A stretch of DNA of 64,000 nucleotides from Burkholderiales bacterium (GTDB lineage Bacteria; Pseudomonadota; Gammaproteobacteria; Burkholderiales; Burkholderiaceae_C), in assembly GCA_028868855.1 (NCBI GenBank), contig JAGWTR010000013.1, forward strand, positions 1-64,000, written 5' to 3'. The notes below the pieces were generated by a model. That model did no database searches. It was not told where the DNA came from and worked only from the letters and a program-made list of their open reading frames with translations. Made by a program: the position numbers and the translations under genes. This document shows, piece by piece, positions 22,641 through 24,376 of this stretch; positions within the stretch are counted from its first letter, which is position 1, and each line of letters begins with the position of its first letter.

Positions 22641-23072
22641 TCAGAAGGGCTTGACGACCACAAGGACCACGATGGCGGCCAACAGCAGCACAGGCACCTC
22701 GTTGAAGACACGCATCCAGCGGTGACTGCGGTGATTGCGCAGCTGCTCGAAATCGCGCAGGATCTTGCGGCACACGTGGTGATAACCAATGACGCCGATC
22801 ACCAGGGCGAGCTTGGCGTGCACCCAGCCATGGCCCGGACCATGCAGGCCCACCCCGTAATAGAGCCACAGGACCAGGCCAAACACCAGCGCGGGAATCA
22901 TCAGCAGCGACATGAAGCGGTAGAGCTTGCGCGCCATCAGCAGCAGGCGCTCCCGCTCGGCGTGACTGTCGCCGGGCACCATGGCCAGATTGACAAACAG
23001 GCGCGGCAGGTAAAACAGACCGGCAAACCAGCTGGCCACAAAAATGATGTGAAGGGCTTTGATCCAGAGCAT
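22641..23072 (-). CDS. hemJ: Protoporphyrinogen IX oxidase HemJ
   Basis: A 143-residue, four-helix membrane protein matching HemJ (UPF0093), which oxidises protoporphyrinogen IX in heme synthesis. Family landmarks are LHIIFVASWFAGLFYLPRLFV at the N-terminus with His8, RKLYRFM, GWVHAKL (His85, Lys87) and the C-terminal FNEVPVLLL. It could be annotated as a CopD-family protein, but the NEVPVLLL ending and the adjacent divergent hemB favour HemJ. Its upstream region holds the candidate RNA described at 23129-23242. Confidence 0.9.
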   Translation of the reverse strand: MLWIKALHIIFVASWFAGLFYLPRLFVNLAMVPGDSHAERERLLLMARKLYRFMSLLMIPALVFGLVLWLYYGVGLHGPGHGWVHAKLALVIGVIGYHHVCRKILRDFEQLRNHRSHRWMRVFNEVPVLLLAAIVVLVVVKPF

Positions 23073-23126
23073 GGGCGATTATGGCCAGCGCTGGCGCCGA
23101 TTGCCGCGATGCGCAAAGATGGCGGC

Positions 23127-23160
23127 ACAAAAAAAGAGCCCCGGCCGAAGCCGGGGCTTT
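23127..23160 (-). terminator. Strong intrinsic terminator upstream of hemJ
   Basis: On the minus strand a perfect 9-bp GC-rich stem (AGCCCCGGC, UUCG tetraloop, GCCGGGGCU; 23158-23150 with 23145-23137) is followed by C and seven U residues. The orientation is clear because the plus strand has only a short T run after the stem. No minus-strand gene lies immediately upstream, so it must end a transcript starting in the hemJ-hemB gap. Confidence 0.85.
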
Positions 23161-23242
23161 GAAGCCTTAACGCTGTCATCACGGTAAGGCACCTGCTCAG
23201 GGAGGAAAAGCAGGGAATGAAGGCCTTGCGGCGTATCATTCA
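23129..23242 (-). ncRNA. Candidate structured small RNA (or hemJ leader with terminator)
   Basis: A predicted RNA of about 114 nt starts just downstream of a good promoter and ends at a strong terminator. I can draw four hairpins on the minus strand. HP1 pairs 23241-23236 with 23220-23215 and contains an inner GCC-GCAA-GGC tetraloop hairpin. HP2 pairs 23214-23210 with 23196-23192 around the loop UUUUCCUCCCUGA, whose CCUCCC could pair with Shine-Dalgarno sequences. HP3 is GCCUUA/UAAGGC (23190-23185 with 23169-23164). HP4 is the terminator. An open frame on this strand runs through all of them, arguing against coding. It matches no RNA family I recognise. Alternatively it is an attenuated leader for hemJ, 57 bases downstream. 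Confidence 0.55.
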
Positions 23243-23248
23243 AAGCGG

Positions 23249-23277
23249 ATTATAGGGGGATTGAGCAACCATGTCTT
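23249..23277 (-). promoter_or_regulatory. Sigma-70 promoter in the hemJ-hemB gap
   Basis: On the minus strand AAGACA (23277-23272) and a perfect TATAAT (23254-23249) are separated by 17 bases. Predicted start of transcription is about 23242, at the first base of the first hairpin of the candidate RNA. Confidence 0.65.
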
Positions 23278-23293
23278 TAGGGCATGTCCGTAA

Positions 23294-24376
<1,083 letters not shown>

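Follow-up and report, generated by a model that had tools for sequence, protein, structure and literature searches.

The gap between hemJ and hemB in the window, by which we mean the whole 64,000-nt stretch of Burkholderiales DNA that was analysed, raises the question of whether the structured element on its minus strand is a small RNA in its own right or the leader of the gene behind it, and of what such an RNA might act on. An earlier reading made from the letters alone (the sequence-only reading) had placed a promoter AAGACA-N17-TATAAT in front of this element. The promoter is indeed present (23249..23277, minus strand), with AAGACA at 23277-23272, a 17-base spacer and TATAAT at 23254-23249; it carries 10 of the 12 sigma70 consensus letters, and no other sigma70-like site was found in 22800-23600 (shuffle mean of 0.2). 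The RNA predicted to start from it is approximately 113 nt long (23129..23242, minus strand), its 5′ end being placed from the -10 box and its 3′ end from the U run (23129). The downstream neighbour, which is not part of the RNA, is hemJ (UPF0093, PF03653; 22641..23072, minus strand), whose start at 23072 lies 57 nt beyond the U run, as had been noted before. Identity, structure, promoter type and conservation were read here from sequence, and transcription in this organism, Hfq binding and pairing were inferred.

An Rfam scan assigned 23216-23130 to RF02837 (anti-hemB) with 60.7 bits, above the gathering score of 49.5 and over model positions 1-81 of 81, which refuted the earlier statement that the element matches no family. 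No other family reached its gathering score anywhere in the window, and no riboswitch or leader family exceeded its cut-off in the region. RF02278 (Betaproteobacteria toxic small RNA; 16.2 against a cut-off of 50) and RF00519 (suhB/mmgR; 27.2 against 41 bits) were considered as identities and rejected. The divergent hemB that accompanies RF02837 is also present (ALAD, PF00490; 23363-24376, plus strand), and it is this position beside hemB that makes the name anti-hemB apt. The member of the RNA family from B. cenocepacia, ncS04, is a 105-nt RNA with mapped ends, the 3′ end by RACE, and Northern panels (PMC5688073); it co-purified with Hfq (PMC5688073; PMC4603805) and showed no significant change across the seven conditions of Table 2 of that study (PMC5688073). 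The window RNA resembles ncS04 in its covariance-model family, its CU-rich hairpin loop, its intrinsic terminator and its length (about 113 versus 105 nt), and differs in its sigma70 consensus boxes, in having hemJ downstream and in the apex of its third hairpin, GUGAUGACAGC; the transcript from the window is a predicted one. A demonstrated function for the anti-hemB family was not found in the open-access literature.

RNAfold folded the element into four hairpins at -51.7 kcal/mol (z of -4.52), a value equalled by 1 of 200 dinucleotide shuffles, and the predicted ensemble was dominated by a single structure (MFE frequency of 0.45, identical centroid). HP1 (23215..23241) has a GAAUGA/UCAUUC stem closed by a GCAA tetraloop and lies outside the Rfam match. 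HP2 (23192..23214) exposes the loop UUCCUCCCU inside CUUUUCCUCCCUGAG, a putative anti-Shine-Dalgarno seed with CCUCCCUGA (23205-23197) as its putative core. HP3 (23164..23190) has a GCCUUA/UAAGGC stem and carries GUGAUGACAGC at its apex (23182-23172), and the intrinsic terminator (23129..23158) consists of a 9-pair stem, a UUCG loop and seven U, all of these being on the minus strand. The fold therefore reproduced the four hairpins of the sequence-only reading, including the CCUCCC loop of HP2; of the 13 nt given to that loop, 9 are unpaired in the fold and 13 are reached if only five pairs are counted.

The relatives used for comparison were mostly best-scoring RF02837 matches. Loci from the order and the class were chosen by the exact 9-base HP2 core CCTCCCTGA, 14 loci without it (3 order, 11 class) being dropped, so that the invariance of this 9-mer is in part a product of selection. 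In an alignment of 57 relatives drawn from the order outside the window's family, 94.3% of cells were paired over 26 pairs, and this fell to 48.5-57.4% when the partner was shifted by one column. The covariation check that had been called for gave compensatory changes in 19 of these 26 pairs, a number reached in 0 of 500 shuffles, with 143 cells changed on both sides against 38.7 in the shuffled sets. In HP1, all 6 pairs had changed on both sides, and one HP2 pair took the forms C-G (29), U-A (22) and G-C (1) across 52 loci of f1, the family to which the window belongs. The terminator loop contains UCCCCUUU in most sequences of the other order families, a form absent from the alignment of the window's family.

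A mechanical 100-aa open reading frame (23239-22937) crosses the RNA. An ATG stands at the place of its start in 19 of 53 family loci, followed by a frame of 13 codons in 10 of these 19 and, in 3, by one of at least 48 codons that runs to where the stretch ends; given this scarcity and the differing lengths there is no conserved peptide, and a leader peptide was rejected. The minus-strand element is real and conserved, an sRNA that stands by itself and belongs to a known family, and in this the earlier proposal of a discrete structured RNA gene was borne out.

Distribution and gene neighbourhood

Matches to RF02837 above the cut-off were obtained in 117 of 150 genomes from the window's family, in 161 of 250 from the order and in 12 of 232 drawn from the class as a whole, 10 of these 12 lying outside the order. 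None of 14 control genomes had a match over the cut-off, and 3 had one below it. Neighbouring genes were then located by tblastn with the window's proteins in about 1.5 kb of flanking DNA. By this search hemJ was downstream of the RNA at 40 of 52 family loci, starting at most 246 nt from the loop core in 39 of them and 1279 nt away in one; none of the 87 order loci and none of the 15 class loci yielded it there. A divergent hemB was found at 41 of the 52 loci of the family, at 61 of the 87 from the order and at none of the 15 from the class, and in 98 of the 111 contigs with a sigmaE-type promoter and at least 300 nt upstream, among the matches listed. At order loci the nearest hemB ATG lay at a median of 113 nt from the loop core. 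Judged by this synteny, the link between the RNA and hemB is old and not obligatory.

These neighbourhoods bear on two other explanations. The element might be an attenuated leader of hemJ, mostly ended at the UUCG terminator and read through into hemJ upon a heme-related signal, much as the sequence-only reading had suggested. The short distance to hemJ and its presence downstream at 40 of the 52 family loci favour such a leader, as does the lack of a second sigma70-like promoter in the gap before hemJ. However, hemJ was undetected behind the RNA at all 87 order loci and at 12 of the 52 family loci, the single dominant predicted fold speaks against an attenuator, and the relative ncS04 is a discrete RNA that co-purified with Hfq (PMC5688073; PMC4603805). 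With no hemJ detected downstream in the order and class loci, a leader of this gene fails to explain the RNA, and the heme-responsive form was set aside on synteny; we consider it most improbable, although some read-through into hemJ may occur. Alternatively, the RNA could overlap the 5′ UTR of hemB on the opposite strand and control hemB as a cis-antisense RNA, which would suit the frequent divergent hemB and the scant space that the median of 113 nt leaves for a separate promoter. A review also names hemB as a predicted target of Bc7 (PMC6321483), which we infer to be anti-hemB/ncS04 from the Rfam description of RF02837 ('Burkholderia RNA 7') and a reference in PMC5688073. Against this stand the loci at which a divergent hemB was undetected, namely 26 of the 87 from the order, 11 of the 52 from the family and all 15 from the class, and the second copies that the family carries at other genomic places, which indicate action in trans. 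No GGAGG-like complement of the HP2 loop was seen by eye at the hemB or hemJ starts of the window, and no demonstration of hemB regulation by an anti-hemB RNA was found in the open-access literature. Control of hemB in cis is, in our view, very unlikely. Since none of the 87 order loci showed a detectable hemJ downstream, the RNA is, on synteny, an sRNA that stands on its own and not the leader of hemJ.

Promoter class across the order

Outside the window's family, the RNA is often found behind a sigmaE-type promoter, GGAACTT-N16/17-TCTNA. With a threshold of at least 10 of 11 letters and expectations drawn from dinucleotide shuffles, this promoter was present at 60 of 86 order loci (0.5 expected), at 6 of 16 class loci (0.0 expected) and at 1 of 53 loci of the window's family (0.2 expected), while a reverse-complement control gave 0 of 87 order loci. 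At least one match was obtained in 31 of 38 families, the remaining 7 having none at 10/11, and the end of the -10 box lay 28-39 nt before the loop core in 61 sigmaE-type matches. A scan of the whole collection for the exact promoter and loop returned at least 120 stretches; the matches listed are mostly titled Betaproteobacteria or subgroups thereof and include Nitrosospira, Methylovorus, Sulfuricella, Thiobacillus and Sideroxydans. A sigmaE-type promoter before anti-hemB was not found reported in the open-access literature.

Sigma70-like sites (at least 8 of 12 letters) showed a different distribution, with 34 of 53 loci in the window's family against 4.9 expected and 17 of 87 order loci against 9.6 expected; the second-copy regions L151-L169 were excluded from all promoter counts. 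The window copy itself has AAGACA-N17-TATAAT instead of a GGAACTT/TC..A promoter. Four loci of another family (f31) appeared intermediate by eye, with GAACTT- or GAAACTT-like boxes and, in three of them, TCATA. From these promoter sequences, the window's family seems to have exchanged sigmaE-type control for an everyday sigma70-type promoter.

The gene for RpoE itself was examined for the same motif. RpoE (TIGR02939) exceeded its cut-off in 25 of 26, 30 of 30 and 21 of 30 genomes of three sets, the third consisting entirely of f1. A first, strict score placed the motif before 3 of 27 rpoE genes (0.33 expected). The pattern GAACT[TA]-N15-17-TCT, which was fixed after inspection of the first genome set, was found upstream of rpoE in 25 of the 48 genomes from the order, where 0.14 would be expected, and in 0 of 26 f1 and 0 of 4 f31 genomes; the second set alone, which had no part in fixing the pattern, gave 13 matches in 28 rpoE upstream regions (0.04 expected). 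Together, the sRNA and rpoE counts point to a common motif in much of the order, with neither beyond chance in f1. A sigmaE-type promoter before the sRNA and a like motif before rpoE suggest that the ancestral anti-hemB RNA probably belonged to a sigmaE/envelope-stress regulon. We found no mention of this sharing of a motif in the open-access literature.

ECF sigma factors share similar -35 boxes, and the GGAACTT-TCTNA motif might accordingly belong to one of them other than RpoE. The -10 box offers some encouragement for this, as it reads TCTNA in the relatives and TCAAA in enteric bacteria, where the sigmaE boxes are GGAACTTTT and GTCAAA (Papenfort 2006, PMC1804206). Nevertheless, the like motif before rpoE in 25 of the 48 order genomes, and its absence before rpoE (0 of 26) in the very family whose sRNA lacks it too, make another ECF factor unlikely. 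The RpoE proteins of the window's family have diverged, with scores of about 225-285 bits where the best matches elsewhere in the order reach 294-337, and 7 of 30 genomes of this family gave no RpoE match at E 1e-60.

The HP2 loop and candidate targets

Considered as a whole, the element is very probably a free-standing anti-hemB sRNA that is likely to act in trans on Shine-Dalgarno sequences, of sigmaE ancestry and rewired in the window's family. Its own promoter and terminator would yield a free-standing RF02837 RNA, whose HP2 loop CUUUUCCUCCCUGAG would pair in trans with purine-rich ribosome-binding sites and block translation, probably with the assistance of Hfq. The suggestion that this C-rich loop could pair with Shine-Dalgarno sequences had already been made from the sequence and is retained as a predicted interaction. 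In most other sampled families of the order, a sigmaE (RpoE)-type promoter would drive the RNA. Some of the genomes concerned have, at the rpoE ribosome-binding site, a sequence complementary to the loop, and we hypothesise that a negative feedback would result from it there. In the window's family, where rpoE shows neither motif nor site, the RNA would be made from a sigma70-type promoter, probably constitutively, and would probably act on mRNAs other than rpoE.

The rpoE proposal arose from the first genome set. The stretch UCCCUGA of the HP2 loop is fully complementary to UCAGGGA, which is the commonest 7-mer in the rpoE leaders of the order (14 of 48 leaders, 12 of 37 families) and occurs in 6 of 618 background leaders, taken by a simple ORF finder from the 120 listed promoter and loop contigs. 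It was found in 0 of 26 f1 and 0 of 4 f31 rpoE leaders. The predicted duplexes between loop and rpoE leaders averaged -11.65 against -7.72 for the background (p of 8e-11, a value that overstates independence because the rpoE leaders are orthologous). In f1 the mean was -5.33, and in f31 the four leaders, although devoid of UCAGGGA, gave duplexes nearly as strong (mean of -10.93). When the loop was permuted, with 200 of the 618 background leaders as reference, the mean shift toward rpoE was -1.61 as compared with -3.93 for the real loop, and 0 of 200 permuted loops gave a shift as large. The shorter CAGGG was present in the rpoE leader of 21 of 49 genomes with a sigmaE-type sRNA promoter (at least 8/10) and of 2 of 29 others; without f1, this association rests on 5 promoterless genomes. 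CAGGG was missing from 26 of 48 order leaders, and the site was missing, even in this form, from 21 of 22 class leaders. Of the 28 rpoE leaders in the second set, 11 have CAGGG and 7 have TCAGGGA, with 6 and 3 of 18, respectively, among the families new to that set. The beginning of the RpoE match coincided with a start codon, or lay one codon behind it, in 38 of 48 order genomes and in only 6 of 26 f1 genomes, which leaves the f1 leaders uncertain; TCAGGGA was found within 200 bases upstream of none of these 26 f1 genes. We found no report of a loop complement before rpoE in the open-access literature.

There is about an even chance that UCAGGGA before rpoE has simply been inherited as a ribosome-binding site and matches the loop by coincidence. 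The leaders are orthologous, the 7-mer occurs in 14 of the 48 only, and permuted CU-rich loops also shift toward rpoE leaders, if less strongly. The RpoE tree points the same way, as a repeated joint change of sRNA promoter and rpoE site was unsupported by it (4 independent pairs, changing the same way in 0.0 and the other way in 0.6 on average). A coincidence sits less easily with a 7-mer that is rare among leaders at large, yet commonest before rpoE and the exact complement of the loop core, and with the failure of every one of the 200 permuted loops to match the shift of the real one. We put forward rpoE as a possible target of the HP2 loop with some reserve. Other targets were sought by complementarity as well. 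In the window's own genome, complements of 15 nt of the loop with at most 2 mismatches were found only in two sRNA genes, so that near-full-length complements were rejected as targets there. Inspection by eye of the leaders of 22 porin genes showed AGGAGA-type sites in many of them, which might pair with CUUCUCCU.

The HP3 loop, related systems and additional copies

The window's family has a second conserved loop. Of 53 family loci, 45 carry GUG(AU/U)GACAGC at the apex of HP3, a motif that is missing from all 87 order loci and all 16 class loci, and no report of this loop was found in the open-access literature. From this conservation, the apex GUGAUGACAGC may be a second seed. Complements of the apex (13 bases, at most 1 mismatch) were found at 16 sites in the own genome, the reversed pattern giving 2. 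Of the 16, two are the sRNA genes, and the other 14 all overlap some frame of more than 100 aa. At one of them (L456; C13:18135-18147, minus strand), twelve complementary bases lie one base from the ATG of a clpV-like type VI secretion gene. This gene matched TIGR03345 with 683 bits, as a fragment cut by the end of the locus, the curated cut-off of 884.95 applying to the whole protein. The clpV-like leader may be a target of HP3, as a lead from one unreplicated genome that chance could yield.

It is conceivable, albeit doubtful as a complete account, that across the Betaproteobacteria an RpoE-induced anti-hemB RNA blocks the rpoE ribosome-binding site in a fast feedback, and that the window's family left this loop and gained a housekeeping promoter, a second seed in GUGAUGACAGC (with clpV-like as first candidate target) and extra loci. 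To the known RNA family the analysis adds a probable origin under sigmaE control, a switch of promoter class, a second conserved loop and a hypothetical rpoE feedback that can be tested. If true, the conserved sigmaE-type promoter would give this RNA family a regulon, an inducing signal and a concrete target, rpoE, and would provide a case of an sRNA that changes promoter class while keeping its loop.

Several known sRNAs offer parallels. RybB and MicA of enteric bacteria lie behind a GGAACTT promoter (PMC1804206), like the sigmaE-type relatives, and would be functional parallels; unlike them, the window copy is without a GGAACTT promoter, and Rfam called neither family. ErsA of Pseudomonas aeruginosa, which is sigma22-dependent (PMC7565897), is likewise controlled by an envelope-stress sigma factor, as the promoters of the relatives suggest for anti-hemB; an Rfam scan of 8 loci called no ErsA-named family. 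NmsRA and NmsRB of Neisseria meningitidis use UC-rich regions as anti-Shine-Dalgarno sequences (PMC5362039), as proposed for the window RNA, and differ in their link to the stringent response and their TCA-cycle targets (PMC5362039). The RF02278 toxic small RNA shares CU-rich unpaired segments with the window RNA and has one copy in the own genome (locus L003, 1499-1562; 55.7 bits). The consensus of suhB/mmgR (RF00519) also contains CCUCCCU, in a stretch that is not aligned to the window's loop. A match of 25.8 bits at the end of a putative phasin-like gene (L004) was judged to be due to chance.

Beyond its one RF02837 match over the cut-off, the own genome holds a second copy below it (43.3 bits) on contig C14 (42577-42670), with the same loop letters and a z of -5.68. 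Further RF02837 matches were present in other genomes of the family, with up to 6 per genome. Among 17 second-copy regions of the family, 15 have the exact HP2 core and two (L164 and L167) are without it; those 15 hold 17 copies, of which 6 have the HP3 apex unaltered and the others differ from it in at least one base, the altered apexes mostly retaining GACAGC or a one-base variant of it. Close to the own second copy are genes for an outer-membrane efflux protein and for a transglycosylase. At three class loci outside the order (L187, L188 and L189), clusters of four sub-cut-off RF02837-like matches were observed. One genome of the family (G087), in which RpoE gave no match at E 1e-40, carries three anti-hemB copies within 14 kb of contig C10, two of them in tandem.
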